In this document: positions 24,918-54,966 of the stretch, in pieces
How the letters are laid out: each line of letters starts with the position of its first letter
How positions within the stretch are numbered: position 1 is the first letter of the stretch
DNA from: Sulfuriferula plumbiphila
GTDB lineage: Bacteria > Pseudomonadota > Gammaproteobacteria > Burkholderiales > Sulfuriferulaceae
Direction of reading: 5' to 3'
NCBI RefSeq assembly: GCF_009938015.1
Contig: NZ_AP021884.1
Location: forward strand, 310,001 to 374,000
DNA length: 64,000 nucleotides
The notes under the pieces: model-generated
Told to the model about the DNA's origin: nothing
Seen by the model: the letters and a program-made list of their open reading frames with translations, nothing else
Databases searched by the model: none
Program-made: the position numbers and the translations under genes

Positions 24918-25545
24918 CGTCCTGCGCTCCCATCCCTAACAATTTGCCGAGCGTAGTCTTGGCATCGATCAACACGCGCTCGGGAAATTTCTTGAATTTG
25001 CCGTCCAACATGTCGCGCCAGAACGGATAAGCGCCACCGCGATACCGAACCAGCTTTCCCTGGCTATTCGGATGCGTGAAAAACGAGCCCAGGAAGGCGG
25101 CGTTCCATGCGTCGATTTTTTCGGTGGCCGTCCCCTCGGGGACTTGGACATTGCCACGGCAAATATCGCCACCTTCCCATACGTTGAAATACGGCGACTG
25201 GAACAATGGGGTCTGCAAAGCAGGGCGGCTCCGCCCCTTGACCGCCCACACCTTCCATACGCGGCTCGACGCCGCGAACACCAGCCCCGGATGCGGCACG
25301 ACCTCACCACGTTCCGGCGCACCCAATTCCGGTGCGCGGAAAACGATATGGCGCTTGGCTGGTGGCACCCACCACAGCAGCAGATCGCCATCCATGTAGA
25401 GCACCGTCTCCGGCAGGAATCCGCCATGCGCGACGCTCTTCGACAAAGCACGGGCAAGTTGAATCGCCGCGCGCGGCGTCATCGCCTGACCGGCGAGAAT
25501 GACCGGCGCACCGTCCACTTCCTCGACCTGGTGTAGCTGCCCAAA
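24910..25545 (-). pseudogene. PRTRC system protein B, 5'-truncated
   Basis: The frame reads FGQLHQVEEVDGAPVILAGQ onward and contains ETVLYMDGDLLLWWVPP and EGGDICRGNVQVPEG, typical of PRTRC protein B. The cysteine in ICRGN is a candidate active residue, since this family has been described as E2-like. Its N-terminal domain is missing: reading upstream, a TGA occurs at 25546-25548 and the DNA becomes the luxR gene. About 202 residues could still be made from the GTG at 25518, but the start region is lost. Recombination at about 25537-25545 joined it to the lux cargo. Confidence 0.8.
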
Positions 25546-26227
25546 TCACCGCGGCGGTCTTGTTGGCGACGTGCAGTTTGACCATGGCATTATTGATATG
25601 GAAGTTGACCGTGCGCTCGGCGATATGGAGAATATCCGCAATCTCACCGGAGGTCTTGCCATCGCCGGTCCAACGGAGTACCTCGATCTCCCGATCAGAC
25701 AACTGCCCCCCAGCTTCCGGCAGCAGCTTGGGCGCCAGCAGGCGCGACATGCCCAGATGGGCCGCCTGGGCCAGCCAAGCCATTTTGAATCCTTTATCCT
25801 GCAGTTCGGCCGCGGACAGGGCTTCGCCCGAACGCGCCAACGTTAACATCCCGCGCACACCGTTTACATTGCGACAAGCCTGCGCCCAGCCTACCGCCAG
25901 CCCGAAGGAGCGGGCCTCTTCCCAGAAGGCGCGCTGGGGGGCGAACAGGCCATCAGACCAGAGGACGGACGACAGCGAACGCATGCCATGCTGCACGGTC
26001 GGGTCGACGGCAATATACCGCTGCTCTTGATAGCGTCTTTGCCAAGTGGCCGGGTAATTGTTGAACAGCGCTGTCTTGGGATGCGTAAGGGGGAGGGGCA
26101 TGCGCAGACCGTAGGCGCAGTAATCGAAGTTGAGTGGGCGCGCTAGCAACACGAGCAATGAAAATAACTGGTGTTCACATTGGACAGTCTGCAGCGCGTG
26201 CAGCTGCTCTTCCTGCCAGACATCCAT
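25304..26227 (-). CDS. luxR: LuxR-family quorum-sensing regulator with a chimeric C-terminal tail
   Basis: The ATG at 26227 has GGGGG upstream. The autoinducer-binding domain (residues about 15-165) contains LNFDYCAYGLRMP, NNYPATWQRRYQEQRYIAVDP and VLWSDGLF. The GerE/LuxR HTH is QLSDREIEVLRWTGDGKTSG to TVNFHINNAMVKLHVANKTAAVIWA. Native sequence ends there; the last 77 or so residues (from ATPGRGSG) are PRTRC-B DNA read out of frame. LuxR proteins normally stop within 5-10 residues of this point. It is divergent from rsaM and luxI, which it presumably activates with acyl-homoserine lactone. Confidence 0.88.
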   Translation of the reverse strand: MDVWQEEQLHALQTVQCEHQLFSLLVLLARPLNFDYCAYGLRMPLPLTHPKTALFNNYPATWQRRYQEQRYIAVDPTVQHGMRSLSSVLWSDGLFAPQRAFWEEARSFGLAVGWAQACRNVNGVRGMLTLARSGEALSAAELQDKGFKMAWLAQAAHLGMSRLLAPKLLPEAGGQLSDREIEVLRWTGDGKTSGEIADILHIAERTVNFHINNAMVKLHVANKTAAVIWAATPGRGSGRCAGHSRRSGDDAARGDSTCPCFVEERRAWRIPAGDGALHGWRSAAVVGATSQAPYRFPRTGIGCAGTW

Positions 26228-26308
26228 AATACCCCCTTTGTCTCCGGGCTTCAGCCCTCTGGACGCAATCGGTACACCGGGATCCAACTGTGAATATCTT
26301 ATACCTGC

Positions 26309-26324
26309 CTGTCAGGGTTGACAC
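26309..26324. promoter_or_regulatory. lux box upstream of rsaM
   Basis: CTGTCAGGGTTGACAC is a near-palindromic 16-base LuxR-type site. It is centred about 42 bases before a plausible start following a TATATC -10 element at 26346, the class II activator position. It also lies within the luxR-rsaM divergent region. Confidence 0.75.
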
Positions 26325-26388
26325 TAGCGTGCCACGAAACGGTCATATATCCTTTTTCACAAGCACTTTGCGAGAGAATGGAACGACC

Positions 26389-26823
26389 ATGAATGATCAG
26401 TCCGATACCGAGACACACACTCATGCCCAAGAGACCATGATGTACTTGTCCCGGGACGGCTATGTGCGCCTGACGCCGGAAACCCTGTTAGCAACCCCGT
26501 TGCGGCATCTCTTATCCGGCCTGGATGAAGATAAAGCCATGCCCTCCCACACGGGGGCGCGCCTGACCCGCATTGCCGGCTACACGGAGTGGGTCAGTAG
26601 CACGACACCGATCCTCACTCTGGGGTGGGACTGGCAGCTGGATGGGGCATCTAGTCAAGTGCACTACGCAAGCCTGGGTACCCCGCGAAGCAATGTCATG
26701 CTCGTGGATGCGGAGCAACACGACCTAGGGGCCGCCAGGACTTTGATGCTGCTTGAAACTGCCATTGATACGCTGGCCTGGCAGGAGGCTGTCCATCGGC
26801 ACCTCAGTACCCGATACGCCTGA
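26389..26823 (+). CDS. rsaM: RsaM-like quorum-sensing repressor (DUF4902)
   Basis: The 144-residue protein starting at the ATG at 26389 resembles RsaM/TofM proteins encoded between luxR and luxI in Burkholderia, Pseudomonas fuscovaginae and relatives: MMYLSRDGYVRLTPETLLATP, then AGYTEWVS, LGWDWQL and a C-terminal helix. RsaM proteins restrain acyl-homoserine lactone production. A longer frame upstream contains the lux box and is not the real start. The position luxR-rsaM-luxI supports the call. Confidence 0.8.
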   Translation: MNDQSDTETHTHAQETMMYLSRDGYVRLTPETLLATPLRHLLSGLDEDKAMPSHTGARLTRIAGYTEWVSSTTPILTLGWDWQLDGASSQVHYASLGTPRSNVMLVDAEQHDLGAARTLMLLETAIDTLAWQEAVHRHLSTRYA

Positions 26824-26827
26824 TCAC

Positions 26828-26843
26828 CTGTCAAGGTTGACAG
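26828..26843. promoter_or_regulatory. lux box upstream of luxI
   Basis: CTGTCAAGGTTGACAG is a perfect palindrome apart from the central GG. Its centre is about 43 bases before the transcription start predicted from a TAGAGT -10 element at 26868, and 71 bases before the luxI ATG. It closely matches the site before rsaM, so LuxR probably controls both. Confidence 0.85.
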
Positions 26844-26906: not shown

Positions 26907-27497
26907 ATGCAGGTCATATCCGGCACACTAGAGCATCTTCCACAGGATTTGTATGCGGAAGTAGCCTGTTATCGCCACCGGGTGTTTGTCGAGCAGCTCG
27001 GCTGGGCGCTTCGCTCGCAACAGTCCATGGAATCGGATCAGTTTGACCGTCCGGATACCGTGTACGTCGTGGCGCAGGATGACGCAGACCAGGTCCTCGG
27101 CTGCGCCCGCCTTCTTCCCACCACCCACCCCTATCTCCTGGGGGAAGTTTTTCCCCAGCTGCTCAATGGTTTGCCACCACCCTGCTCTTCGGAAGTCTGG
27201 GAGCTGTCACGTTTCGCGGCCGTGGATCTCAACAGTCAAACCCCAGCATCGGGCCAGTTTTCGTCGCCGGTTGCGATCAAGTTGCTGCAGGAAGCGATGG
27301 TGTGCGCCGCCGCGCTTGGCGCAAAGCGACTGATCACAGTATCACCGCTGGGTGTGGAAAGATTGTTGCATAGGGTGGGATTTCATGCACATCGAGCCGG
27401 GCCGCCAATGATTATTGACGACCATCCGGTATTCGCCTGCTGGATTGAGCTGGACGGCGTTTGTAATAATAAAGGCAATGCCGACTGGCGACAATGA
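26907..27497 (+). CDS. luxI: Acyl-homoserine lactone synthase LuxI
   Basis: The 196-residue protein carries the autoinducer-synthase invariants: CYRHRVFVEQLGW (the R-x-x-V-F and W), ESDQFDRPDTVYVV (E, D), LGCARLLPTT (RLLPT), WELSRFAAV (E and R) and KRLITVSPLGVERLLHRVGF. It makes an N-acyl-homoserine lactone from SAM and acyl-ACP. The start is the ATG at 26907 with GGGGGAAAT upstream; a TTG 15 bases earlier is less likely. A lux box precedes it, implying autoinduction. The acyl-chain length cannot be read off. Confidence 0.95.
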   Translation: MQVISGTLEHLPQDLYAEVACYRHRVFVEQLGWALRSQQSMESDQFDRPDTVYVVAQDDADQVLGCARLLPTTHPYLLGEVFPQLLNGLPPPCSSEVWELSRFAAVDLNSQTPASGQFSSPVAIKLLQEAMVCAAALGAKRLITVSPLGVERLLHRVGFHAHRAGPPMIIDDHPVFACWIELDGVCNNKGNADWRQ

Positions 27498-27826: not shown

Positions 27827-28570
27827 ATGCGCGTCGCTATCGTCAACGAAATCTCCACCATCGACAAGAATCCCGCGATCGTCGCGGCCCTGAGCTCGAG
27901 CGGGCACGAGATCATCAACGCCGGCATGGCGCCGGATCGACGGCCGCACGACCTGACATACATCCACACCGGGCTGCTTTCGGCTTTACTGCTCGACACG
28001 GGTGCCGCCGAATTCGTCGTCGGCGGCTGTGGTACTGGCATCGGCTACCTCAACTCGATCATGCAATACCCAGGCGTGGTCTGCGGGCTTGTCACGAACC
28101 CGCTCGATTCATGGTTGTTCGCGCGGATCAACGGCGGCAACGCGGCGGCGCTCCAATTGAATCAGGGCTACGGATGGGCGGGAGAGGTGAATCTTTCGTT
28201 TCTGCTGGAACCTTTGTTCGGCATCGATAGCCGCGAATGGGGCGTCGGCTATCCCGCTCACCGGCGCGAGTCACAGAATGCCAGCCGTGCGTGCCTGCGC
28301 GAATTGTCGCGGATATCGCATATGCCCATGGCGGAAATCGTTCGGCGAATACCGGACGATACTATGGCGCCTATACTCACGTTTCCGGGCATAGCCGATC
28401 TCCTCGACGCCCGCCAGAATGCCCGCTGCGAGACGAGTCGCGCGCTGCATCAAAAGCTCGTCGACTATGAGTACGCACGATCTCGGCCACTGATCGATTC
28501 GGATGGTAAGGATTCGCGTATTCGGGAATGTATGGAGCAGAAAGTTACTAAACGAGCACTTATATCATGA
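27827..28570 (+). CDS. RpiB/LacAB-family sugar-phosphate isomerase-like protein
   Basis: The N-terminal 150 residues have the RpiB fold: MRVAIVNEISTIDKNPAIVA, VVGGCGTGIGYLNSIMQYPG (the active-site cysteine region), then VCGLVTNPLDSWLFARINGGN. RpiB proteins interconvert ribose-5-P and ribulose-5-P or act on related sugars. The C-terminal 90 residues extend beyond the usual 150-residue enzyme. It opens the plus-strand operon and overlaps the next gene (ATGA). It may supply a ketose phosphate donor for the ThDP enzymes downstream, or have a new substrate. Confidence 0.75.
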   Translation: MRVAIVNEISTIDKNPAIVAALSSSGHEIINAGMAPDRRPHDLTYIHTGLLSALLLDTGAAEFVVGGCGTGIGYLNSIMQYPGVVCGLVTNPLDSWLFARINGGNAAALQLNQGYGWAGEVNLSFLLEPLFGIDSREWGVGYPAHRRESQNASRACLRELSRISHMPMAEIVRRIPDDTMAPILTFPGIADLLDARQNARCETSRALHQKLVDYEYARSRPLIDSDGKDSRIRECMEQKVTKRALIS

Positions 28571-29931
28571 CGGAAAGTAATTCGTTGGCGCAAAAGTTGG
28601 ATTGCCTGTGGATGCCCTTCACCGACATGCAGGCGTTTGCACGAGATCCCTTGGTGCTGCAGAAGGCGGAGGGCCCGTATGTCTACGACATCGACGGAAA
28701 CGAGTATTTGGATTGCATATCCTCGCTTTGGCACGTCGGGGTCGGCCACGGTAACCGCCACTATCTCGACCGGATCAAAGCGCAACTCGATGGCGCCCTG
28801 ACGTCGGCATCACTGTTCGGTTCGGCGCACATGGCAGCGTTGGATCTGGCCTCCCGGCTGGTCGCCTTCGTGGACGACGCGCGGCTGAGGAAGGTATTTT
28901 TTTCCTCGGGCGGGTCGGAGGCCGTCGAGACCGCCCTGAAGGTCGCCATCCAGTACAACAAGATTCGCGGCCGCGGAGGCGACAAGGTCGTGTATCTCAA
29001 GCGCGCTTACCACGGCGTGACGCTCGGCGCGCTGTCCGCCATGGGCATCGAAGGCGATCGCATGGGATTCGAGGCGCATCTGTCGCGCGAGTTTATCGCC
29101 GCGGAGAGTCCGCATTGTTACCGCTGCCCCTACGGCCTTTCGCGCCCCCGGTGCGAGCTCGCATGCGCGAAATCGCTGGAGCGGCTCATAGCACAGCACC
29201 CTGGCGAGATCACGACGTTGATCGTCGAGCCGGTGCAAGGGGCGGGCGGGATCATCGTGCCGCCGCCTGATTATTTGCGCGAGCTGCACCGCATTTGCCG
29301 CGAGCATGACATCGTCTTCATCCTCGACGAAGTCGTGACCGGCTATTGGCGTACCGGAGCGCGGTTCGCATTCCAGGCGGAGGGCGTGGCGCCCGATATC
29401 TTGGTGTTGTCGAAAGGTATGAGCGGCGGCGTGCTACCTCTGGGCGCGACGGTGGTGAGCCGCGAAATCTTCGACACGTTCACCGCTGCCGACGAGGTGT
29501 TCATGCACGGCAATACGTACGGCGGGAATCCACTCTCGTGCGCGGCCGGGATCGCCCACCTGGAGTTCGTGTCGCGGCCGGAGTTCGCGGCGCGGGTGCA
29601 CGCCCTCGTGGGGGAATTCGCTGCCGGTCTCGAGGCCCTCAAACACCATGACCTGGTCGGCGATATTCGCCAAAAGGGGTTGATGGCGGGGATCGAGCTT
29701 GTCACTGACCGCGTGACCAAGGAGCCGTACAAGCCGCAGCGGCCGCTCGCGCTCTTGGCAAGACGCCACGGCCTGTTGTTGCGTCCGCTGGGCAATGTGA
29801 TCACGCTGTTTCCGATGATGACGGTCACGCCATCCGCGCTCGTGGATATGTTTGTGCGGCTCGACGCGTTTTTGCATGATCTCGGGCGCATGTCGAAGCG
29901 CGGCGGCCCGCGCCTGGCGGCAGGTGGGTGA
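28567..29931 (+). CDS. Class III PLP-dependent aminotransferase
   Basis: This 454-residue fold-type I enzyme related to BioA/omega-aminotransferases has LWMPFTDMQAF and LDCISSLWHVGVGHGN near the N-terminus, FFSSGGSEAVETALK, FILDEVVTGYWRTG, and the PLP lysine at position 283 (VLSKGMSGGVLPL). The opening LWMPFT is BioA-like, but no other biotin genes are present. It also has a cysteine-rich insertion (SPHCYRCPYGLSRPRCELAC, about residues 179-198), unusual for BioA. In this operon it probably aminates a ketone or aldehyde intermediate. Confidence 0.85.
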   Translation: MTESNSLAQKLDCLWMPFTDMQAFARDPLVLQKAEGPYVYDIDGNEYLDCISSLWHVGVGHGNRHYLDRIKAQLDGALTSASLFGSAHMAALDLASRLVAFVDDARLRKVFFSSGGSEAVETALKVAIQYNKIRGRGGDKVVYLKRAYHGVTLGALSAMGIEGDRMGFEAHLSREFIAAESPHCYRCPYGLSRPRCELACAKSLERLIAQHPGEITTLIVEPVQGAGGIIVPPPDYLRELHRICREHDIVFILDEVVTGYWRTGARFAFQAEGVAPDILVLSKGMSGGVLPLGATVVSREIFDTFTAADEVFMHGNTYGGNPLSCAAGIAHLEFVSRPEFAARVHALVGEFAAGLEALKHHDLVGDIRQKGLMAGIELVTDRVTKEPYKPQRPLALLARRHGLLLRPLGNVITLFPMMTVTPSALVDMFVRLDAFLHDLGRMSKRGGPRLAAGG

Positions 29932-29971
29932 TTCGCGAGGACATACTTGGGTGCGAGCAACGAGGGATATT

Positions 29972-30706
29972 ATGAACGTGCTACGAAGGTTGTTTGGCCT
30001 GGCTCCCATGACGGGCGGCTATCCAGCACCCGTATTGCCAGAAATGGACTATGAGCGGTATTGGGAGGTCAGGGCGGCGAGGCCACTACCACCGCGGGTG
30101 TGCGCAATTACCGAGCTTCTCTGCCCCAATTCCAGCGTGCTCGACATCGGTTGCGGGGACGGTGAGCTGTACTCGTACGCCACGCGCAAGGTCGATAGTC
30201 TCGATTGGTTCGGCCTCGACGTATCGACGATCGCGCTCGAAAAGGCGAGGAAGAAGGGTATGCGCTGCATGCAGGTGGACATCACCCGCCCGGGGTTCGA
30301 GGTCCCGGACCAGTACGACTACATCGTCATCACGGAAGTGCTCGAGCACATCCTCAACCCGGAACAGGTGTTGCGCAAGGTGGCTTCGCACTTCCGCTTG
30401 GCGCTGATATTGACGATTCCCAACATTGCCTACTACAAGCATCGCTGGCGCATGCTCACGGGACGCTTTCCCATCCAATGGCAGTGGCATCCCAGCGAGC
30501 ACGTGCGCTACTGGTCGTTCACGGACTTCGGCGCGACGTTGGAAACGCTCGGGTTCGCGCGCTACTGCATGCTCACGACCAACGGCTTCCCGTTCGAGAA
30601 CGCGAGCGAGCCCGGCTGGCATCGCGCGTGGCCCAATATGTTGGCGGAAGGCGCCGTATTCTATATTCCCGCCCCGGCCAGCGGCGCAGCGGGGGTGGAA
30701 GCGTGA
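29972..30706 (+). CDS. SAM-dependent methyltransferase (Methyltransf_11 type)
   Basis: The ATG at 29972 is chosen since the preceding in-frame codons overlap the aminotransferase. The 244-residue protein has SVLDIGCGDGELYSYATRK as SAM motif I, WFGLDVSTIALEKARKKGM as motif II and YDYIVITEVLEHILNPEQVL as the post-motif region. A tail with WHPSEHVRYWSF resembles methyltransferases acting on polar head groups or sugars. Its TGA overlaps the GTG of the luxE-like gene. Confidence 0.8.
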   Translation: MNVLRRLFGLAPMTGGYPAPVLPEMDYERYWEVRAARPLPPRVCAITELLCPNSSVLDIGCGDGELYSYATRKVDSLDWFGLDVSTIALEKARKKGMRCMQVDITRPGFEVPDQYDYIVITEVLEHILNPEQVLRKVASHFRLALILTIPNIAYYKHRWRMLTGRFPIQWQWHPSEHVRYWSFTDFGATLETLGFARYCMLTTNGFPFENASEPGWHRAWPNMLAEGAVFYIPAPASGAAGVEA

Positions 30707-31857
30707 GCGAGACAATGGGCGCGACACTAAAGATGTCTTACGCGCATCCCGAGCGGGTAATTACGCCGGACGCATTCGACTTCAACGCATACCAAGACGA
30801 AACCATATTCCACTGGGACGAGCGTCGGCGCACTGCATTCCAGCAGGAATATGTACGCACTGCCTTCGCCTGGCATTTCGAGCGCTGCCGCGACTACCGG
30901 CGCTATGCCGAGGGGCAAGGAATAGGCCCAGAGGCGCTGCGCCGCGGGAATATCCTGAACCGGGTGCCGCAGATACCGACGATTCTGTTCAAGAGCACCG
31001 AGATTCTAAGCGTGGCGCGAGACGACATCGCAAAGACGTGCGAGAGCAGTGGGACGCGTGGTCGCGTCAGCCGCGTATTCCGCGACGAGGTCACGCTGGA
31101 CCGGCTGCTGTGCTCGATCATCGCGGGCATGAAGTACATCTACGACATCGACAACGATAGGGCCATCGTCCTCAATCTCGGCCCGAGCACCGAGGAGGCC
31201 GGAGACATATGGTTCTCGTATGTCACGAGCATCGCCGATCTCTTGTACAAAACATACTACTTCGTGGCCGAGCAAAAGTACCTTTTGCCGCAACTTGTTG
31301 ACTTCCTCGCGGAGTATCGGAGCGAAAAGACGCCGATCTTGCTCGGCGCGCCCATCATGTTCAAGCACCTGCTCGCATACATGGAGGAAAAGAACCTGCG
31401 TCTGCGCATGCCGCTTGGCGCGCTTGTCATTACCGCGGGCGGATGGAAGAAGTACTCGGGCGAAGCTATACAGCGTGATCGTCTGGAACTCCTGCTGAGC
31501 GAGCGGCTGGGCGTGCGCGCCGAAAACGTGCGTGACTCGTTCAACCAGGTCGAACTCAATACGGTCATATTCGAATGTCAACATAAACGCAAGCACGTGC
31601 CGCCGTGGCTCAAGGTGATCGCGCGCAATCCGACCACCTTGATGGACGTCGGGGAGGATCGCTCGGGCATTCTGTCCTATCTGGACGCCAGCAACGTGAG
31701 CTATCCCTGCTTCATCATCTCCGAGGATATAGGTCGTGTGATCGGCGGGTGCCCGTGCGGGCGCACGGGTCAGGTGATCGAGGTAGAGCGGCGCGTGAAC
31801 CGAGTTGAGTCGCGCGGTTGCGCGATCAAGATGGACAGCTACGTGGCGGAGGCATAG
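30703..31857 (+). CDS. luxE: LuxE-like acyl-protein synthetase
   Basis: LuxE activates a fatty acid as acyl-AMP and transfers it through its own cysteine to LuxC. The 384-residue protein, from the GTG at 30703, has TILFKSTEIL, CESSGTRGRVSR (adenylate-binding loop, about residues 113-124), PILLGAPIMFKHLL, VITAGGWKKYSGE, DSFNQVELNTVIFECQ and CPCGRTGQVIEVE, all features of the LuxE family and unlike ordinary acyl-CoA ligases. luxD- and luxC-like genes follow, so a complete fatty-acid reductase complex is encoded. Confidence 0.87.
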   Translation: MSETMGATLKMSYAHPERVITPDAFDFNAYQDETIFHWDERRRTAFQQEYVRTAFAWHFERCRDYRRYAEGQGIGPEALRRGNILNRVPQIPTILFKSTEILSVARDDIAKTCESSGTRGRVSRVFRDEVTLDRLLCSIIAGMKYIYDIDNDRAIVLNLGPSTEEAGDIWFSYVTSIADLLYKTYYFVAEQKYLLPQLVDFLAEYRSEKTPILLGAPIMFKHLLAYMEEKNLRLRMPLGALVITAGGWKKYSGEAIQRDRLELLLSERLGVRAENVRDSFNQVELNTVIFECQHKRKHVPPWLKVIARNPTTLMDVGEDRSGILSYLDASNVSYPCFIISEDIGRVIGGCPCGRTGQVIEVERRVNRVESRGCAIKMDSYVAEA

Positions 31858-31861
31858 CGAA

Positions 31862-32764
31862 ATGATTACGATCGAGCCAGCACAGATCGAGGTTGCCGGT
31901 CACCGCATTCAACTCGCGATAGATCGGCCGAAATCGGCACAGACCGAAGAGCTGCCGGTCATCGTCATGCCACCGGCGTTCAACAAGACCATGCGGGACT
32001 ATTTCCTGCTGTCACTTTATTTCGTCTACAACGACTTCCTCGTCATCCGCTACGATAACGTCAACCATCTAGGCCGCAGCTCCGGCAGCATCTACGACTT
32101 CAACCTGTCCGATTGCCTATTCACCCTCGAACAGGTCACCGCCTTCGTGCGGGATCGCTTCCAGTCACGCGTTTCTGTGCTCGCCACCAGCCTCATGGGG
32201 CGGGTGATGCTCAGGCACCTGCGCTCTCCTCTGGCCGGGATTTACGAGCTGGTCGGGCTCCTTCTCCCAGTCGTCAATGTCGAACATACGATAAACCACA
32301 TCGTCGGTATTGACCTTTTCGAGCGCGAACGGGCCGGCGATCCTGTTATCGAGGTGGATATCCTAGGCAACCGTGTGCGAGCCGAGCGTTTCGTTCGCGA
32401 TGTGATACAGCAGCAGTACGACTCGGTGACTAGTGTCATGGACGATCTCCGGCATGCTGACCGCGACCTCCTTGTGTTCGCGGCCCCGAAGGACGAATGG
32501 GTGCGGTACGACGAGGTCCTGAGCCTTTTCTCGCGATACGAACGCACGCAACAGATGGTGGTGTTAGAAAATTCATCGCACCAACTCGACCGGAATCTCG
32601 TCGCGTGCAAGCAACTTTTTCGGGAGGTGGTAGGCAGCTATATGCGCGCGATCGACGTGAAAAAACGCGATCCGCGATTCCCATCGTTTCGCGAGATCGT
32701 CGCGAACAGTCGTATCGATCGCGCGCACGAGGAAGCGGACAGCCTCACGGTGGCGGGCGTGTAA
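31862..32764 (+). CDS. luxD: LuxD-like acyl transferase (acyl-ACP thioesterase)
   Basis: This alpha/beta-hydrolase takes acyl groups from ACP or CoA and releases fatty acid for LuxE. Near Ser110 it has VLATSLMGRVMLRHL, corresponding to the ASLSAR nucleophile loop of LuxD (Ser114), in place of a classical GxSxG. Aspartate (LLVFAAPKDEWV) and histidine (LENSSHQLDRN) partners are visible. Length is 300 residues, matching LuxD. The start is the ATG at 31862, four bases after the luxE stop. Confidence 0.85.
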   Translation: MITIEPAQIEVAGHRIQLAIDRPKSAQTEELPVIVMPPAFNKTMRDYFLLSLYFVYNDFLVIRYDNVNHLGRSSGSIYDFNLSDCLFTLEQVTAFVRDRFQSRVSVLATSLMGRVMLRHLRSPLAGIYELVGLLLPVVNVEHTINHIVGIDLFERERAGDPVIEVDILGNRVRAERFVRDVIQQQYDSVTSVMDDLRHADRDLLVFAAPKDEWVRYDEVLSLFSRYERTQQMVVLENSSHQLDRNLVACKQLFREVVGSYMRAIDVKKRDPRFPSFREIVANSRIDRAHEEADSLTVAGV

Positions 32765-32778
32765 ACGAGGGCGAGACG

Positions 32779-34209
32779 ATGCAGCATTACGAGTTACCGT
32801 TGATCGCTGCGGGGCGATTGATCGAAGCCGCGGATGGCGGGGAGCGCTACGTGTTCTACAACGACGACGTGGAGTTCGCCATACCGAGGCTGGACGACCT
32901 GTCGTTTCAGGCGATCAGGGACGCCGACGGTATTCCGTTGCGCAACTGTTCGGTTAACGACATTATCGGCTTCCTGAGCCGCATCGGAAAACTGTGGCGC
33001 GACGACGACTATCCGCTGCGCCGGCTGCTACTTGACCTCGGCCCCAAGGCAACGGGCGAATCCGTGGATACCTATCGTCACAGCCTTGACCTCTTCATTG
33101 GCCTCATCTCGACCAAAGCCTATCTCGGTGACATCATTGACGCTGAACTCCGAAACCGCCTTTACCTCGACGAGTGGGTGCCATACCACAACGTATACCT
33201 GCGCGCGGAACCGCTCGGGCGGCTGCTGCACATCATCGTTGGCAACGTGCCGGTTGCGAGCGTGTACTCGTTGGTGCGGGGCATACTGACCAAGAACGTG
33301 AACATCGCTAAGCTCCCGAGCCGGGATGTGGTCACACTTTCGTTGTTCGCGCGCTCGTTCTTCGATCTTGCGCCCGAGCACCCCATTACGAAGACTACGT
33401 CCGTAGTCTACTGGGACCGCAACGAGGACCAATGGATAGACAGATTCATGGACATCGCCCACGGGCTCTGCATCTGGGGAGGCGAGAAATCGGTGGAGAT
33501 ATACAAGTCGAAGGCGCGCATCGGTGTGGAGGTCATCGAGTATGGACCGAAGCTGGGCGCACAGATCATACGCTGGAATGAGGCCGACGCGGGTAACTTG
33601 CCGATACGCGTGGCGCACGACATCGCCGTATTCGACCAAGAGGCTTGCTTCTGCCCGCAAATCATTTACCTGGAGGGCAATATCGATTCGTTCATAGAGG
33701 CGCTGTCCGAGGCGCTCGAACGCTACACTAAGATATGGCCGAAGGGCCAGTACGAGGTCGACCATTATGCGCACATGAATTACGTCAAGCTCGCGCACCT
33801 ATACAAGGGCGGTGACGTGCGGGCGTGCGAACGTCTGAGTTGGCTGATTGTCAAGCTGCCGGTGGGGCACGATATCGCGTTGGAGCATCCGCTCGGCAGA
33901 ACGATATACGTGCGCCCGGTGCACGATGTGCGCGAGTGCGTGCAATTCTTAGATTGCCGGAACCAGACCGTCGGCGTCGATCCCATTGAAGTCGGGCATG
34001 AGTTGAAGGACGCGCTCGCGGAACGCGGCGTGCAGCGCATATCGAACATAGGGTACGTCGACATACCGCGGCTCGGGCTCGGGCACGATGGAAAGTATCT
34101 GGATAGGCTGGTTCGCTGGGCGGCATTGGAGCGGGAGCGCGACTTCAATTGCAAGATTTACGACGTGCCGTACGAAGAGAAGCTGCACAATACCTTGGTC
34201 GCGGACTAG
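32779..34209 (+). CDS. luxC: LuxC-like acyl-CoA/acyl-protein reductase
   Basis: LuxC is the NADPH-dependent aldehyde-forming subunit. Cys290 in DQEACFCPQIIYLEG aligns with the acyl-accepting cysteine of bacterial luciferase LuxC (Cys286). GNVPVASVYSLVRGILTKN is the cofactor-binding region characteristic of the family. The 476-residue length is normal. The start is the ATG at 32779, with GAGGGCGAG upstream. No luxA or luxB genes are present, so the fatty aldehyde must be used for something other than light. Confidence 0.92.
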   Translation: MQHYELPLIAAGRLIEAADGGERYVFYNDDVEFAIPRLDDLSFQAIRDADGIPLRNCSVNDIIGFLSRIGKLWRDDDYPLRRLLLDLGPKATGESVDTYRHSLDLFIGLISTKAYLGDIIDAELRNRLYLDEWVPYHNVYLRAEPLGRLLHIIVGNVPVASVYSLVRGILTKNVNIAKLPSRDVVTLSLFARSFFDLAPEHPITKTTSVVYWDRNEDQWIDRFMDIAHGLCIWGGEKSVEIYKSKARIGVEVIEYGPKLGAQIIRWNEADAGNLPIRVAHDIAVFDQEACFCPQIIYLEGNIDSFIEALSEALERYTKIWPKGQYEVDHYAHMNYVKLAHLYKGGDVRACERLSWLIVKLPVGHDIALEHPLGRTIYVRPVHDVRECVQFLDCRNQTVGVDPIEVGHELKDALAERGVQRISNIGYVDIPRLGLGHDGKYLDRLVRWAALERERDFNCKIYDVPYEEKLHNTLVAD

Positions 34210-34232
34210 CGCGACTAGACACGGAGGGACGC

Positions 34233-36026
34233 ATGGGTGAGAACGTAGAATTTTCCTTGATGGACATAGAGCGGCGCTCTTACAAGGAGCTGCCTACCTA
34301 CGCCGCGCGCGTGCGCGAACATCTTATCGAGCATTTCTCGAAGAACGGCGGTCACGTCGGCTCCAACCTGGGCATCGTCGAACTGCTGTTGTCAGTGCTG
34401 AAGGAGTTCGATTACACGCGTGATTACGTGATCTTCGATACTGGTCACCAGAGCTATCTGATGAAGCTCTTCACGCCGCGCCCCAAGGAGTTCGCGTCGA
34501 TTCGCAAGCTCGGCGGCCTGAGCGGGTTCATGGACAAGCACGAAAACCGCTTCGACCGCTACATCTCTGGCCACGGTGGCGCCGGTTTTTCCACGGCGGT
34601 TGCCTTGTCCCAGGCGCTGGAGCGCGACGATGGCGCGGGCACGAAGAACGTGGTGTGCGTCATCGGCGACGCCGCCCTGGCCGAGGGCGTCGCTCTCGAA
34701 GCCTTGAACAACATACGTGTGGCGGGGGGCGCAAGACTCATCGTCGTTCTCAACGACAACGGCTACTCCATAGAGCAGAACGTGGGCAACATAAACGGCC
34801 TGCTGCGCGATCCCGCGCTGGCCGAGCGGTTTTTCACCCTGTTCGGCCTCGAGTACGTCTACTGCGAGGACGGGCACGATTTGGCCGCGCTTGCATCTGC
34901 GTGGGCACATGTCAAACGATCGCGGGCGAATTGCGTGCTGCATGCGCGTACGCGCAAGGGCCACGGGCTCCCGGTCGCTGAAGGCGACGTAGCCCGCAAG
35001 ATGCACTACACCGAGCCGTTCTTCCCTGACACCGGCGCGCGTAGAACGCCGGTGTCAGGGACGATCCGGTATGTCGATGTGAACTCCATCACCTTGGCGG
35101 AGCTGCGCGAGGAGGGAAAGGACGTCGTGGTGGTTACGCAGGCCATGCGTGGCGGCAACGGGCTCGACGAGTTTCACGCACGGTTCCCGGAGAGCTTCGT
35201 CGATGTGGGTATGTGCGAGCAGCACGCGTTAAGCAGTGCCAACGGCATCAGCATCGCAGGCAAGATCCCGATAATCGCATTGCATTCGGCGTTTCTCCCG
35301 CGCGCGTTCGATCAAATTTTTCAAGATATATGCCTGCAGAATATCCATGCGGTCATTCTCGTCGCACGCAGCGGCCTCGCGGGGCCGGATGGTCCCACGC
35401 ACCATGGCGTATTCGATATGTCGTATCTGCGCTGTCTGCCAAACTTGCAGATGATCGGGCCCAAGAGCGGTGAGGAGTACTTTGCGGCGATACGCCATGC
35501 AGTGATGCAGGCGCGAGGCCCGATAGCAGTGCTCACCCCGCACGCGAACACGACGTTCTCGCTGAACGACGCGCGCGCGACGGTGGTGGATGAGCCACTA
35601 GATTGCATGCAGCGCGGCCACGATGTTCTGATCGTCGCCACCGGCCCGCTCATCGATGACGCCAAGCGTCTGATACAGCACATCACCGCGAACGGATACT
35701 CGTGCGGGCTCGTGCACCTACGCTGGATAAAGCCGCTGGCGGTGGATGCGTTGAAGGATCATATGCAGCACTATGCGTTCATTGTGGTTCTCGAGGAGAA
35801 CACCGTCATCGGCGGCATTGGCAGCGAGATCGCGAAGTTGAGCGCGGAGGACAAAACCATGCCGCCAGTGCGGTTGTTCGGCGTGAACGACTGCTTCCTG
35901 CCGCACGGCGACATTCCGGGGCTGCGGCGGCTCGCCGGCCTGGCGCCCGAGGATATCTTCGCGCAGTTGCCCCTGTGGACAAGGGAGCCGCGTGGCCGTG
36001 CGCCGGCGTCTGGTGCGAACGTATGA
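34233..36026 (+). CDS. 1-deoxy-D-xylulose-5-phosphate synthase-like ThDP enzyme
   Basis: The 597-residue protein (slightly shorter than typical 620-residue Dxs) has GGHVGSNLGIVELLLSVL, the ThDP motif VIGDAALAEGVALEALNN, the catalytic glutamate in DVGMCEQHALSSANG, and a C-terminal transketolase-type domain (VATGPLIDDAKRL). Dxs condenses pyruvate with glyceraldehyde-3-P by decarboxylative acyloin formation. Here the DXS-like enzyme sits between luxC and transketolase halves, so it may use the LuxCDE aldehyde as acceptor. AGGGAC precedes the ATG. It overlaps the next gene by four bases. Confidence 0.85.
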   Translation: MGENVEFSLMDIERRSYKELPTYAARVREHLIEHFSKNGGHVGSNLGIVELLLSVLKEFDYTRDYVIFDTGHQSYLMKLFTPRPKEFASIRKLGGLSGFMDKHENRFDRYISGHGGAGFSTAVALSQALERDDGAGTKNVVCVIGDAALAEGVALEALNNIRVAGGARLIVVLNDNGYSIEQNVGNINGLLRDPALAERFFTLFGLEYVYCEDGHDLAALASAWAHVKRSRANCVLHARTRKGHGLPVAEGDVARKMHYTEPFFPDTGARRTPVSGTIRYVDVNSITLAELREEGKDVVVVTQAMRGGNGLDEFHARFPESFVDVGMCEQHALSSANGISIAGKIPIIALHSAFLPRAFDQIFQDICLQNIHAVILVARSGLAGPDGPTHHGVFDMSYLRCLPNLQMIGPKSGEEYFAAIRHAVMQARGPIAVLTPHANTTFSLNDARATVVDEPLDCMQRGHDVLIVATGPLIDDAKRLIQHITANGYSCGLVHLRWIKPLAVDALKDHMQHYAFIVVLEENTVIGGIGSEIAKLSAEDKTMPPVRLFGVNDCFLPHGDIPGLRRLAGLAPEDIFAQLPLWTREPRGRAPASGANV

Positions 36027-36922
36027 CGGCGCGCGAGGGTGTTTCCGGCCGCGCGGTGGTTGGGGTCGAACCCGAATCGCCCGACACGACGGCGACAACG
36101 GAGTGGAAGCAGGCGCTCAGCGATATTGCGCGGGAGGTTCGTTATCGGGCGCTTGAAATGATACATTGGGCGGGTGCGGGCCATCCAGGCGGCAGCCTGT
36201 CGGTTATTGACATCCTAGTACATCTGTATTTCCGCGCAATGAATGTGCGACCTGAGACGCCGCAGTGGGACGCCCGCGATCGCCTAATCCTGGGAAAGGG
36301 GCATGCGACCGCCGCGCTCTATGCGGTCCTCAGCCGGCGCGGTTACATGCATGACCATGTATTGCATCAGTACGGCGAAGTGCGCGGGCCGCTGCAGTGT
36401 CATCCCGACATGCACAAAACGCCCGGCGTTGATTTTTCGACGGGCTCCCTCGGTCAGGCGCTGTCCGTAGCCGCTGGAATGACGCTGGCCGGATGCCTCC
36501 GGGCCGCGCGGTTCCATGTATACGCTGTCCTTGGCGACGGCGAGATGCAAGAGGGGCAGGTGTGGGAAGCGATGCGCTTCACCGCCGAGCGGTCACTCTC
36601 GCGGCTAATCTGCATCGTCGATTACAACGGTTACCAACAGTCGCGGGCGACACCGGAAGCACTCCCGCTTGAGCGCCTCGCGAAACAGGTCGAGGCGTTC
36701 GGTTGGGAAGTAGCGGTCATCAACGGCCATAACTTCGAGGAGCTGGAGGAGGGCATCGCATGGGCACGGCGAACCAAGGACCAGCCGCGTTGTATCATCG
36801 CGCGTACTGTCAAGGGCAAAGGCGTCTCCTTCATGGAAGGAGATCTCAGTTGGCACGTGCGTCACCCTACCCATGCCGAGCTGATGGTCGCGCGCCAAGA
36901 GCTCCTCGGACAGCGGCACTGA
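36023..36922 (+). CDS. Transketolase N-terminal-half subunit
   Basis: The 299-residue protein holds the ThDP pyrophosphate-binding half: HWAGAGHPGGSLSVIDILVHLYF, DRLILGKGHATAALY, GSLGQALSVAAGM, and GDGEMQEGQVWEAMRF with the later DYNGYQ. Split transketolases are known in archaea and in secondary-metabolite clusters. The partner is the next gene. The N-terminal 30 residues are a non-conserved extension. The ATGA overlap with the DXS-like gene implies coupled translation. Confidence 0.87.
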   Translation: MTAREGVSGRAVVGVEPESPDTTATTEWKQALSDIAREVRYRALEMIHWAGAGHPGGSLSVIDILVHLYFRAMNVRPETPQWDARDRLILGKGHATAALYAVLSRRGYMHDHVLHQYGEVRGPLQCHPDMHKTPGVDFSTGSLGQALSVAAGMTLAGCLRAARFHVYAVLGDGEMQEGQVWEAMRFTAERSLSRLICIVDYNGYQQSRATPEALPLERLAKQVEAFGWEVAVINGHNFEELEEGIAWARRTKDQPRCIIARTVKGKGVSFMEGDLSWHVRHPTHAELMVARQELLGQRH

Positions 36923-36930
36923 GGTCGGAC

Positions 36931-37884
36931 ATGCGCGAGGCGTTCGGTAGAGCATTGGTGGCACTGGGCGAGCAGAACGAACGCGTCATCGTGCTCGACG
37001 GTGACGTGTGCGGCTCTACCAAGGCGGTGTATTTCAAGGAGCGGTTCCCCAACCGGTTCGTGCAAGCGGGAATCGCGGAGCAGAATATGGTCGGCGTCGC
37101 GGCTGGTTTGGCGGCGACGGGCCTCCTACCTTACGTCACGACCTTCGCGGTGTTCGCGACCAAGCGCGCATGCGAACAAATAAGCGTAGCCGTTGCGCAC
37201 GCGAATACGAACGTGCGCATCTGCGGCGGATACAGCGGGCTCTCGAGCGGCAAGGCGGGGGCCACGCACCAGGCGATTGAGGACATCGCCATCATGCGCG
37301 CGATGCCCAATATGGCGGTGTTTGCGCCGGGCGACGACGCTGAGCTCGCGCAAGTGATGGAGGCGAGTCTGACGTTTCCAGGGCCACTCTACGTGCGGGT
37401 CGGGCGCAACGAGGTCCCCGCGATCTTCGATCGGTGCCACCGTTTCCGTCCGGGCGAGGTGTACTGTCTGCGGCAGGGCGGCGACGTCGCGTTGATCGGC
37501 ACTGGCGGCAGTACCTTCGTGGTGCTCGAGGCCGCGGAGCTGCTGGCGGCGGAAGGCATCGACGCGGCCGTGCTCCACGCGCCCAGCCTCAAACCGCTCG
37601 AAGCGGAGGAGATCGTCGCGGCGGTGTCGGCGACTGAACGCGTCATTACCGTCGAAGATCACAACGTGATCGGCGGCCTAGGCGATGCCGTGGCCTCAGT
37701 TCTGGCGCAAGCCCATGTGCATGCGCGCTTGGTCAAGCTCGGGATGCAGGACACGTTCGGGGAATCGGGGCTAGAGCACGAGCTGCGAGAGGTCTACGGC
37801 CTGTCGCCGCGGGCGGTCGCGCGCGTAGGCGCTGCCCTGTGCGCGGCGCGAGGCGCGGGCATGACCGGTGCGTGGCAGATATGA
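36931..37884 (+). CDS. Transketolase C-terminal-half subunit
   Basis: The 317-residue protein has the pyrimidine-binding domain with the catalytic glutamate in FVQAGIAEQNMVGVAAGLA, then GATHQAIEDIAIMRAMPNM and a C-terminal transketolase domain (VALIGTGGSTFVVLEAAELL). Together with the preceding subunit it should move a two-carbon ketol unit between sugars or onto another aldehyde. It begins nine bases after the N-half gene and overlaps the decarboxylase alpha gene by four. Confidence 0.87.
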   Translation: MREAFGRALVALGEQNERVIVLDGDVCGSTKAVYFKERFPNRFVQAGIAEQNMVGVAAGLAATGLLPYVTTFAVFATKRACEQISVAVAHANTNVRICGGYSGLSSGKAGATHQAIEDIAIMRAMPNMAVFAPGDDAELAQVMEASLTFPGPLYVRVGRNEVPAIFDRCHRFRPGEVYCLRQGGDVALIGTGGSTFVVLEAAELLAAEGIDAAVLHAPSLKPLEAEEIVAAVSATERVITVEDHNVIGGLGDAVASVLAQAHVHARLVKLGMQDTFGESGLEHELREVYGLSPRAVARVGAALCAARGAGMTGAWQI

Positions 37885-38402
37885 CCGCGCGTGTGCCGGA
37901 CACGATGACGAAATCCATGCTTCGTGCGGGCTATGATTTTTTTGCGAGCGTGCCCTGCGGAATGCTCAGCCCAATCATCCGCCAGGTCGACATCACATCG
38001 AGGGATCGCGGCCTGCCGCATGTCCTCGCCCCGCGAGAGGACATCGCCCTGGGCGTGGCGTGCGGCGCTTTCCTGGCGGGCCGGCGTCCTCTTGTGCTCA
38101 TGCAGAACTCGGGCCTCGGCCAGTCGGTGAACGCGATCGCATCGTTGATCAAGCCGTTCCATTTACCGATCAGCATGGTGGTGAGCATTCGCGGTTACAA
38201 GGGCGGCGACACAGAGGAGAATCGGATGATGGGCGAGATCACCAAAAAACTGCTGGACGACATGCGTGTGCCGACAACTATACTGACGACCGAGAACGTC
38301 GAGCAGGCGGTCGACTGGGCGCGAGCCATGACCGACACAGGAATGCCGTGCGCGATACTCGTCACGCCACACAGCCTCGGGGGTCCCAGTGACGCGTACT
38401 GA
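37881..38402 (+). CDS. Sulfopyruvate/phosphonopyruvate decarboxylase-like alpha subunit (ComD type)
   Basis: The 173-residue protein contains the ThDP pyrimidine-binding domain: VPCGMLSPIIR, then HVLAPREDIALGVACGAFLA (the glutamate that activates ThDP) and VLMQNSGLGQSVNAIASL. Split ComD/ComE enzymes decarboxylate sulfopyruvate in coenzyme M synthesis; related single-chain enzymes decarboxylate phosphonopyruvate. No PEP mutase or sulfolactate genes are nearby, so the substrate is probably different, for example pyruvate or another 2-oxo acid. Confidence 0.83.
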   Translation: MTARVPDTMTKSMLRAGYDFFASVPCGMLSPIIRQVDITSRDRGLPHVLAPREDIALGVACGAFLAGRRPLVLMQNSGLGQSVNAIASLIKPFHLPISMVVSIRGYKGGDTEENRMMGEITKKLLDDMRVPTTILTTENVEQAVDWARAMTDTGMPCAILVTPHSLGGPSDAY

Positions 38403-39012
38403 TTGCCTGAAGGCGATCTTCGCCGCCGCGCCTGAGGCACCGGTCGTGCTTACGACCGGGTACACCTGTCGCGATGCCTTCGCATTTAACGATAGAGAGG
38501 GAAGCTTTTACATGGTGGGATCGATGGGGCTCGCGGGATCAATCGGTATCGGTGTCGCGTTGTGCACGCGTTTGCCGACTATTGTCGTGGACGGTGACGG
38601 CGCTCTCCTCATGAATCCCGGGAACCTATTTCTCGCCGCCCATTTGCGTCTCGCGAACCTCGTCCACCTCGTGCTTGACAACCGCTCTTACGAGTCGACG
38701 GGTGGCCAAAAAAGTATTGCCGACAGCGTGGACTTCGCCAAGGTCGCACTGCACAGCGGCTACAGATTCGGTGAAACGGTAACCACGTTGCCTGACTTTG
38801 AACGGCTGCTCAAACGCGTGTTGGTCTCTGGTTCTGGACCTGCTCTCATCCACGCCGTGCTGGACGGCGTCGCGGCACCGATCGCGCCCCGCATCCCGAT
38901 TCCCTTGCGCGAAATCAGCAAACGGTTCCGCCGCTTCCTGACCGAACGGGCGCATTTGCACGCGCAATCCCACTCGCACTATGCCTGCAACGTCAGATCT
39001 GGATCAGAATAA
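38389..39012 (+). CDS. Sulfopyruvate/phosphonopyruvate decarboxylase-like beta subunit (ComE type)
   Basis: The 207-residue protein, from the GTG at 38389, has the ThDP-binding motif VDGDGALLMNPGNLFLAAHL with NLVHLVLDNRSYESTGGQ following, and SFYMVGSMGLAGSIGIGVAL at the N-side. It is the partner of the alpha subunit, overlapping it by 14 bases. The C-terminus beyond about 180 (LHAQSHSHYACNV) is not conserved. It closes the overlapping operon. IS30 debris follows. Confidence 0.83.
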   Translation: MTRTDCLKAIFAAAPEAPVVLTTGYTCRDAFAFNDREGSFYMVGSMGLAGSIGIGVALCTRLPTIVVDGDGALLMNPGNLFLAAHLRLANLVHLVLDNRSYESTGGQKSIADSVDFAKVALHSGYRFGETVTTLPDFERLLKRVLVSGSGPALIHAVLDGVAAPIAPRIPIPLREISKRFRRFLTERAHLHAQSHSHYACNVRSGSE

Positions 39013-39767: not shown

Positions 39768-40844
39768 ATGAATATTCGTGTGGGAATTATTTACGGCGGG
39801 CGAAGCTGCGAACACGAGGTGTCTATCAGCTCGGCCGCCAGCATCGCGAGCGCGCTCGACCGTAGCCGATACGATGTCACGCTCATCGGCATCGACAAGC
39901 GCGGGCATTGGCGACTCGAGAGCGAAGAGCACCTCCGTCTCGGAAAGATATCGGACTCCGGGTCACGCGAGATCGTGCCGGTGATGCAAGGCAAGCGCGC
40001 CGCGCTCCTGGAGCGCGGCGCGCGTTCGCATACGCTGGAGATCGACGTCTTTTTTCCAGTCGTTCACGGTACCTTCGGCGAAGACGGCTCCTTGCAGGGA
40101 TTTCTGCGGTTGCTCGACGTGCCATTCGTCGGATCGGGGGTGCTAGGATCGGCCGTCGGCATGGACAAGGACGTAATGAAGCGGTTGCTGCGAGACGCGG
40201 GTATCCCAATCGCCCGCTTCGTCACGGTGCGGGATCAGGATCGGCGCGGCCTTTCCTACGCAAGCGTCGCGCGCGAGCTCGGGCGCATGGTCTTCGTCAA
40301 ACCCTGCAACCTTGGCTCATCGGTCGGCGTGGCTAAGGCAGCGAGCGAGGCGGAGTTCGTGCGCGCAGTGGACGGCGCATTCGGTTACGACCGCAAGATC
40401 CTCATCGAAGAGGCGGTACATGGCCGGGAAATCGAATGCTCCGTCATGGGTAACGATCATCCTATCGCATCCGTACCGGGAGAAATCAGGCTGAACACCG
40501 ATTACTACTCCTACGAGGCGAAGTATCTAAACGTCGACGACGCGATTTTGGAGATTCCCGCCAAGATCAGCGCCGAGGCCAGTGCTAAGGTACGCGAGCT
40601 CTCGGTGAAGGTGTTCGAGACGCTGGAGTGCTCGGGCCTTGCGCGCGTGGATTTCTTCCTCAAGGATGATGACGATGTGCTGGTGAACGAGATCAATACA
40701 TTGCCCGGCTTCACGTCGATAAGTATGTACCCCAAGTTGTGGGAGGCGTCGGGCGTGAGTTACACCGAATTACTCCATCGCCTCGTGCAATTGGCGATAG
40801 AACGGCACGAGCAGGAGGGGCACCTCAGGCATTCCTTGCCTTAG
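39768..40844 (+). CDS. ddl: D-alanine--D-alanine ligase-type ATP-grasp enzyme
   Basis: The 358-residue protein carries Ddl features: VGIIYGGRSCEHEVSISSA, the VHGTFGEDGSLQGFLRLLDVPFVGSG motif region, PCNLGSSVGVAKA, HGREIECSVMGND, ARVDFFLKDDDDVLVNEINTLPGF and the usual STP-like SISMYPKLWEASG. Ddl makes the D-Ala-D-Ala dipeptide of peptidoglycan. Its placement beside a biosynthetic operon, away from mur genes, suggests a second copy serving self-resistance or a dipeptide ligation step. An IS5-family element is inserted exactly at its stop codon, which was preserved by target duplication. Confidence 0.88.
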   Translation: MNIRVGIIYGGRSCEHEVSISSAASIASALDRSRYDVTLIGIDKRGHWRLESEEHLRLGKISDSGSREIVPVMQGKRAALLERGARSHTLEIDVFFPVVHGTFGEDGSLQGFLRLLDVPFVGSGVLGSAVGMDKDVMKRLLRDAGIPIARFVTVRDQDRRGLSYASVARELGRMVFVKPCNLGSSVGVAKAASEAEFVRAVDGAFGYDRKILIEEAVHGREIECSVMGNDHPIASVPGEIRLNTDYYSYEAKYLNVDDAILEIPAKISAEASAKVRELSVKVFETLECSGLARVDFFLKDDDDVLVNEINTLPGFTSISMYPKLWEASGVSYTELLHRLVQLAIERHEQEGHLRHSLP

Positions 40845-53994: not shown

Positions 53995-54117
53995 CTTGGT
54001 ATATCCTCCAGGCAAAAAATCGCGTTTGGCTTGGGCTGCCTGCAATGCCCATGGCCGTTGAACTTAGTACAGGATCAAATAATAACAGCGGGCTACTGTC
54101 CCAAGCATGACCGATCC

Positions 54118-54133
54118 ATTACAATTTTGTAAT
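54118..54133. promoter_or_regulatory. CopR/CusR-type box
   Basis: ATTACAATTTTGTAAT is a perfect palindrome apart from its central TT, matching the cop-box consensus of CusR/CopR-type regulators. It is in the divergent region between copA (minus) and copR (plus) and probably controls both. Confidence 0.8.
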
Positions 54134-54262
54134 CGAGTCGTCACTTTATCGACAGACTCTCGCGAGTATCCTAATCAGCAATAACCCCATGGAGCATATT
54201 CGGTATCCAATCAGGAGCCGCGCCTCGCACCGGCTCCAGGTCAGAACGGGTAGGAATTGCAC

Positions 54263-54958: not shown

Positions 54959-54966
54959 TCCGCAAA

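Follow-up and report, generated by a model that had tools for sequence, protein, structure and literature searches.

The stretch analysed here, 64,000 nucleotides of the Sulfuriferula plumbiphila genome (positions 310,001 to 374,000 of contig NZ_AP021884.1, hereafter the window), carries at positions 27827-39012 of the + strand eleven open reading frames (ORFs) in which a LuxE-LuxD-LuxC fatty-acid reductase set adjoins three kinds of thiamin diphosphate (ThDP) enzyme: a DXS-like protein, a split transketolase and a ComDE/Ppd-like decarboxylase. Our tentative reading, to which we would grant somewhat less than an even chance, is that this operon serves the biosynthesis of a long-chain amino-ketol or amino-polyol lipid from a fatty aldehyde, and that it is probably linked to quorum sensing and probably acquired horizontally. 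The eleven genes are as follows.

27827-28570, + strand: RpiB/LacAB-family isomerase of the NF006753 (DhuI-like) subfamily (NF006753 172.9 bits, above the cut-off of 137; Pfam LacAB_rpiB)
28567-29931, + strand: class III pyridoxal phosphate aminotransferase (PF00202, Aminotran_3, 305 bits)
29972-30706, + strand: MetW-like S-adenosylmethionine methyltransferase (PF07021, MetW, 70.7 bits; also Methyltransf_23)
30715-31857, + strand: LuxE acyl-protein synthetase with invariant Cys369 (Pfam LuxE 232 bits; NCBIfam LuxE 275 bits)
31862-32764, + strand: LuxD acyl transferase/thioesterase with invariant Ser110, Asp211 and His240 (Acyl_transf_2 106 bits)
32779-34209, + strand: LuxC acyl reductase with invariant Cys290 (Pfam LuxC 259 bits)
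34233-36026, + strand: DXS paralogue with His at E. coli positions Y392 and R478 and an internal loop missing (Pfam, NCBIfam, alignment)
36023-36922, + strand: split transketolase, N-terminal subunit (Transketolase_N)
36931-37884, + strand: split transketolase, C-terminal subunit (Transket_pyr and Transketolase_C)
37881-38402, + strand: ComD-like alpha subunit of a ThDP decarboxylase (TIGR03845 113.3 bits, under the cut-off of 147.95; no Pfam match)
38389-39012, + strand: ComE-like beta subunit of a ThDP decarboxylase (TIGR03297 137 bits, cut-off 312.5; TIGR03846 126.7 bits, cut-off 221.5; both under)

All eleven ORFs are intact, each ending in a single stop, and both split ThDP enzymes are present as complete subunit pairs. 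At the junctions the genes overlap by up to 14 bp or stand up to 40 bp apart, a spacing by which they would form one transcription unit, and the G+C content at third codon positions (GC3) lies between 0.69 and 0.81 across the set. The original prediction, made from the same DNA, had placed eleven same-direction genes here and named their families, and the ORFs and the Pfam and NCBIfam matches bear it out on both counts; its description of the genes as almost all overlapping was too strong, because only 4 of the 10 junctions are overlaps, of 4 or 14 bp, and the remaining six are gaps of 4-40 bp. A scan against Rfam gave nothing at gathering score.

The LuxE-LuxD-LuxC set is complete, as had been claimed. 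Each of the three proteins was aligned with its counterparts from a lab-plasmid LuxCDE set, which we take to be of the Photorhabdus type, and from three loci in other genomes (L020, L030 and L031), and Cys369 of LuxE, Ser110, Asp211 and His240 of LuxD and Cys290 of LuxC, presumably the catalytic residues, are identical in all five sequences of each protein. Identity to the operon proteins in these alignments is 23-29% for LuxD, 30-34% for LuxC and 36-40% for LuxE. LuxE was scored against Pfam with its first 30 residues left out; against NCBIfam LuxE the whole protein gives an unchanged 275 bits. That the operon set forms aldehyde is a strong inference. Its LuxC is the single match to that protein in the genome (3.45 Mb, one contig). 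The further claim that luxA and luxB are missing holds for the operon, where neither is among the eleven genes, and for the window, in which a whole-genome luciferase-family search gave no match, but the genome elsewhere holds two luciferase-like monooxygenases, one of the MsnO8 family and the other LuxA-like.

The ThDP enzymes and the modifying enzymes

Aligned with E. coli DXS, the operon paralogue retains H49, H80, E370, R398, R420, D427 and H431, lacks an internal loop and has His in place of both Y392 and R478. According to the accessible part of one source, R420, R478 and Y392 make up the conserved pocket of DXS that binds glyceraldehyde 3-phosphate (GAP), and the Km for GAP quoted for an R478A enzyme is 1400 uM (PMC11019550); two of these three residues are replaced in the operon protein. 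Since all 29 DXS relatives compared (the best matches after the operon copy in a search of 299 genomes, 4 of the 29 lacking the N-terminal part) keep both Y392 and R478, a weakened phosphate site and a different, likely non-phosphorylated, acceptor are suggested for this protein. Two DXS relatives that match in one long stretch were looked at more closely and set aside. Both keep Y392 and R478; one (G434, L128) lies near ispG and ispH with no other operon gene within 20 kb, save cross-matches to the same protein, and the other (G504, L129) has no other operon gene within 19 kb.

The split transketolase has all of its active-site residues intact in alignment (His 26, 66, 100, 261 and 473 and Glu 411), and on the acceptor side it carries Ala for D469 and, according to which alignment is used, Tyr or Gly for H461. 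The solved split transketolase of Carboxydothermus retains H461 and D469 in a printed alignment. Engineered D469 variants of transketolase are described, in the portion of the source available, as having a shifted acceptor range (PMC5073344), and the nearest solved split transketolase takes phenylacetaldehyde and cyclohexanecarboxaldehyde, again by a source available in part (PMC7661550). Elsewhere in the genome stand another full DXS (2718246) and two transketolases of full length (3272390 and 1243194), so the operon DXS and transketolase are extra copies; the possibility, raised at the outset, that they are the sole housekeeping copies is excluded.

The two-part ComDE-like query was compared half by half with the one-piece Ppd model, and 9iz3 is the best solved relative of its ComE-like half. 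The aminotransferase matches positions 398-729 of the PigE model at 250.3 bits, under the cut-off of 850 and over the aminotransferase part only. For the isomerase the nearest solved structure is 4u8e, which we take to be that of DhuI. The substrate of DhuI, 4-deoxy-L-threo-5-hexosulose uronate (DHU), is without phosphate, and DhuI would therefore give a precedent for a non-phosphorylated hydroxycarbonyl as isomerase substrate. In the part of the source that could be consulted, DhuI is a member of the RpiB/LacA/LacB family that isomerises DHU originating from glycosaminoglycans and pectin (PMC12838403).

Genomic setting and distribution

Upstream of the operon stand a luxR-luxI pair and lux-box-like sites, the LuxR and LuxI models matching under their equivalog cut-offs.

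25304-26287, - strand: LuxR-type autoinducer-binding regulator (NCBIfam SdiA/TraR models, under cut-offs)
26290-26823, + strand: DUF4902 ORF between luxR and luxI (PF16245 129.6 bits on stretch 26407-26820)
26309-26324, + strand: lux-box-like palindrome with 2 mismatches to a perfect site (pattern scan)
26828-26843, + strand: perfect lux-box-like palindrome CTGTCAAGGTTGACAG upstream of luxI (pattern scan)
26907-27497, + strand: LuxI-type acyl-homoserine-lactone synthase (NF010408 88 bits and NF052393 85 bits, both under cut-offs)

Shuffled sequence would be expected to yield 0.38 matches to the pattern; the scan found 3, with the perfect site counted once for each strand, a number attained in 3 of 100 shuffles. 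The LuxR is 48% identical to a LuxR next to LuxEDC at locus L020 of another genome. Judged from this arrangement, the operon is probably under quorum-sensing influence. At 25304-25600 the LuxR frame continues past the helix-turn-helix into an unrelated tail that overlaps the adjacent minus-strand ORF on the PRTRC side, likely marking where two DNA segments were joined. In the flanks are PRTRC genes, an actin/ParM-like gene, an integrase, DUF1173, an IS5/IS1182-type transposase and copper genes (a multicopper oxidase and a CusS/CopS-type sensor kinase, at 52186-55968 of the window), the make-up of a plasmid-like island.

LuxD was searched for in three genome samples, which overlap one another. 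Among 41 genomes, of which 17 belong to the genus of its own and are not its own, a strong match was found in its own genome only, two others reaching at most 26 bits; among 398 genomes of the phylum 86 matched, those above 100 bits being its own and two of one other genus; and among 369 genomes of the class 3 matched at E 1e-15 or better, with its own alone above 100 bits. LuxE had matches in 15 of 300 genomes of the order, its own included, and a scan of genome contigs found three loci, of which L032 is, judging by its length, evidently the same contig as L020. Sixteen LuxE/LuxC neighbourhoods were compared (14 other loci of order genomes, with L030 and L031). LuxC adjoins LuxE, or stands one gene (LuxD) apart from it, in all 16, and LuxD is present in 3. 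By the terms of the original prediction it would be refuted if these genes never co-occurred elsewhere, and that objection still stands: the rest of the set is met at none of the 16 loci, and LuxD matches above 100 bits are as few as given above. LuxE-LuxC does occur with a split transketolase at three of the loci (L021, L022 and L023). The remaining operon genes had no match at E 1e-5 in the 16 loci, save where the DXS and ComE queries cross-matched transketolase halves, and their absence at L020 and L030 is weak because contig ends fall close to LuxE there.

In the three cassettes with a split transketolase, an AMP-binding ligase, LuxE, LuxC, a FabA/FabZ-like protein, a GMC oxidoreductase, a small protein and the transketolase are found together, with a short-chain dehydrogenase/reductase in two of the three (ligase, FabA and GMC genes were checked for L022 and the dehydrogenase/reductase for L021 and L023, the rest being assigned by eye); their transketolases have lost H461, D469 and R520. 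At L020:23-5390, LuxE-LuxD-LuxC are accompanied by a phosphopantetheinyl transferase and the LuxR mentioned above, on a contig that by eye also has ParA- and relaxase-like genes. At L030:583-5875, in a Solirubrobacterales metagenome-assembled genome, LuxE-LuxD-LuxC are followed by a 220-aa protein with no Pfam or NCBIfam match and then by a luciferase-like monooxygenase (PF00296 203 bits), which is possibly an actinobacterial lux-like operon.

Plasmid records gave 55 matches to LuxC, all below 60% identity, and in the 3 of these records whose annotation was read LuxC stands with other oxidoreductases or a ligase and no other operon gene is annotated. LuxD matched one plasmid record, a lab plasmid, the ComE-like protein 80, the RpiB-like protein 35 and the C-terminal transketolase subunit 498; megablast of 16001-41000 against plasmids found no match, and in viral contigs no LuxC was confirmed. 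Literature searches, with most subscription journals outside their coverage, found no description of such an operon or pathway.

A proposed pathway and its alternatives

The enzyme classes and residues set out above would suit the following course. By the chemistry of the lux system, LuxD would release a fatty acid, LuxE would activate it on its cysteine and LuxC would reduce it to the fatty aldehyde. This aldehyde, or one derived from it, may then be lengthened by the DXS-like enzyme with an acetyl unit taken from pyruvate, by the split transketolase with a ketol unit, or by both, after which the DhuI/RpiB-like isomerase could interchange hydroxyketone and hydroxyaldehyde, letting a second ThDP enzyme extend the chain again. 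The aminotransferase would convert a ketone to an amine and the methyltransferase would methylate that amine. The least certain step is that of the ComDE-like pair, which may decarboxylate a 3-substituted pyruvate, either providing a further donor or forming a small aldehyde. The sequence from fatty aldehyde through ThDP-dependent carbon-carbon bond formation to amination and methylation had been foreseen in the original prediction, and it gains support from the LuxEDC residues, the extra DXS and transketolase and the altered DXS pocket; the order of the steps, the product and the joint action of all the genes are what we infer. The spacing of the genes, the DhuI precedent for the isomerase, the aldehydes taken by the nearest solved split transketolase, the recurrence of LuxE-LuxC with a split transketolase and the luxR-luxI pair with its perfect lux box also speak for the pathway.

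A more specific version, which we consider rather improbable, has as product a sphingoid-like amino-diol or amino-polyol that would arise with no serine palmitoyltransferase, by pentose-phosphate chemistry on a fatty tail. Here the aldehyde from LuxDEC and a two-carbon ketol from the split transketolase would give a 1,3-dihydroxy-2-ketone, and the DhuI/RpiB-like isomerase would make the carbonyl terminal. A further unit could then be attached by the DXS-like or ComDE-like enzyme, and the amino-polyol would be completed by amination and methylation through the aminotransferase and methyltransferase.

Several observations weigh against the amino-lipid reading. None of the NCBIfam equivalog cut-offs is reached by LuxE (275 of 550 bits), LuxD (111 of 420) or LuxC (285 of 750), so that these are intact homologues and not certified luminescence enzymes. 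The DXS-like protein passes one DXS equivalog cut-off (NF003933, 448.3 over 395), narrowly misses another (TIGR00204, 444 under 465.95) and retains R420 of the GAP pocket. Loss of H461 and D469 was dropped as a sign of fatty-aldehyde use by the transketolase, because both residues are absent from 29 of 29 split relatives and their change in the operon enzyme therefore says nothing special about fatty aldehydes; moreover, the enzyme retains R358, S385 and R520, found together in only 5 of these 29. No second copy of the eleven-gene set was met in the searches run. The operon resembles three housekeeping genes of the genome in GC and GC3 (their GC3 being 0.75-0.78), and its composition is therefore without sign of recent transfer. 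Finally, the pattern scan found no lux box directly upstream of the first gene (27827). In favour of the reading, no terminator-like site is listed on the + strand between luxI and that gene, nor a promoter-like one, so that quorum-sensing control would be by read-through.

Some of these points favour a different arrangement, less probable than the amino-lipid pathway and yet its most serious competitor, in which LuxEDC and a sugar-type module of isomerase, DXS-like, transketolase and ComDE-like enzymes make two separate blocks, for example a fatty amine or aldehyde and a deoxysugar-derived headgroup, that are joined by enzymes encoded outside the operon. With R358, S385 and R520 retained, phosphorylated ketoses could still be transketolase substrates, and the arginine and the family score kept by the DXS-like protein point the same way. 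However, the eleven genes include no glycosyltransferase, condensation-type or amide-forming enzyme to join such blocks, and the DXS-like protein has lost Y392 and R478. It is unlikely that the operon is a chance gathering of cargo genes from mobile DNA that share no pathway: the plasmid-like and insertion-sequence genes of the window, and the failure to meet the full set elsewhere in the searches run, would agree with such an origin, but the tight spacing, the intact ORFs, the GC3 range held throughout and the retention of both split ThDP enzymes as complete pairs speak against it.

Only a shade more doubtful than chance assembly is an operon whose product is an unusual sugar, acyl or branched-chain, destined for a surface glycan, as the LuxE-LuxC-split-transketolase cassettes may do. 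L023 is a polysaccharide-type locus with adjoining glycosyltransferase, sugar-transferase and polysaccharide-biosynthesis genes, L021 has a TPR/GT41-type protein and a DegT-type aminotransferase nearby, and flagellin glycosylation islands of Aeromonas carry luxE and luxC according to the accessible part of one report (PMC7874193). Against this, the cassettes have no homologue of LuxD, DXS, RpiB or ComDE beyond cross-matches to transketolase halves, they carry genes absent from the operon (GMC oxidoreductase, FabA-like and AMP-binding, confirmed for L022), and none of the eleven operon genes is a glycosyltransferase. There is little to recommend an antimicrobial directed at D-Ala-D-Ala ligase (Ddl). 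A Ddl gene at 39768-40844, above its family cut-off, lies 755 bp downstream of the operon on the same strand, and with a further strong Ddl match in the genome (3131642) it could be read as self-resistance, but a transposase-like fragment (HTH_38; IS30-type by eye) separates it from the operon and it may be unrelated cargo. Least credible of all is a dispersed luminescence or aldehyde-oxidising system in which LuxEDC supplies the LuxA-like monooxygenase at ~1.033 Mb (G000:C1:1032784-1033836; L138, L142): luciferase alpha chains are among the best solved matches of that protein, but it scores 101 bits against a LuxA cut-off of 600, lies by eye among ordinary chromosomal genes with no LuxB recognised alongside, and leaves the ThDP genes unexplained.

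If the amino-lipid pathway is correct, a natural-product pathway here begins with the fatty-acid reductase module of luminescence put to a second use, and sugar-type ThDP enzymes (DXS and transketolase) have been retuned to build on fatty aldehydes. Amino-lipids would then be accessible by a new route, and new carboligases would be at hand. With Y392 and R478 both replaced in a DXS paralogue, the question of its acceptor is open to direct test.

Relation to known systems

With the luxCDABE bioluminescence operon the set has in common homologues of LuxC, LuxD and LuxE whose catalytic residues are invariant, and a luxR-luxI pair nearby; it differs in that LuxA and LuxB are missing, the gene order is E-D-C and the scores fall under the NCBIfam LuxC, LuxD and LuxE equivalog cut-offs. 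The DhuI system of glycosaminoglycan catabolism is approached through the isomerase, by subfamily (NF006753) and nearest solved structure, but no DhuD-type reductase or uronate gene is among the eleven. Like the ComDE sulfopyruvate and Ppd phosphonopyruvate decarboxylases, the ComDE-like pair consists of split alpha and beta ThDP subunits; unlike them it stays under all curated cut-offs, and the eleven genes, to which that comparison was confined, include neither a phosphoenolpyruvate mutase nor a ComABC enzyme. The cassettes at L021-L023 likewise unite LuxE, LuxC and a split transketolase, but do so without LuxD, DXS, RpiB or ComDE homologues and with extra oxidoreductase and dehydratase genes. 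The pathway logic has parallels in these cassettes and in the PigD/PigE route to the 2-methyl-3-n-amyl-pyrrole (MAP) part of prodigiosin, which comprises conversion of an activated fatty acyl group to the aldehyde, ThDP carboligation and an aminotransferase. The operon aminotransferase matches the PigE model, though far under its cut-off; a separate LuxEDC set stands where PigE has its reductase domain, and ThDP enzymes of the DXS, transketolase and ComDE types take the place of PigD.

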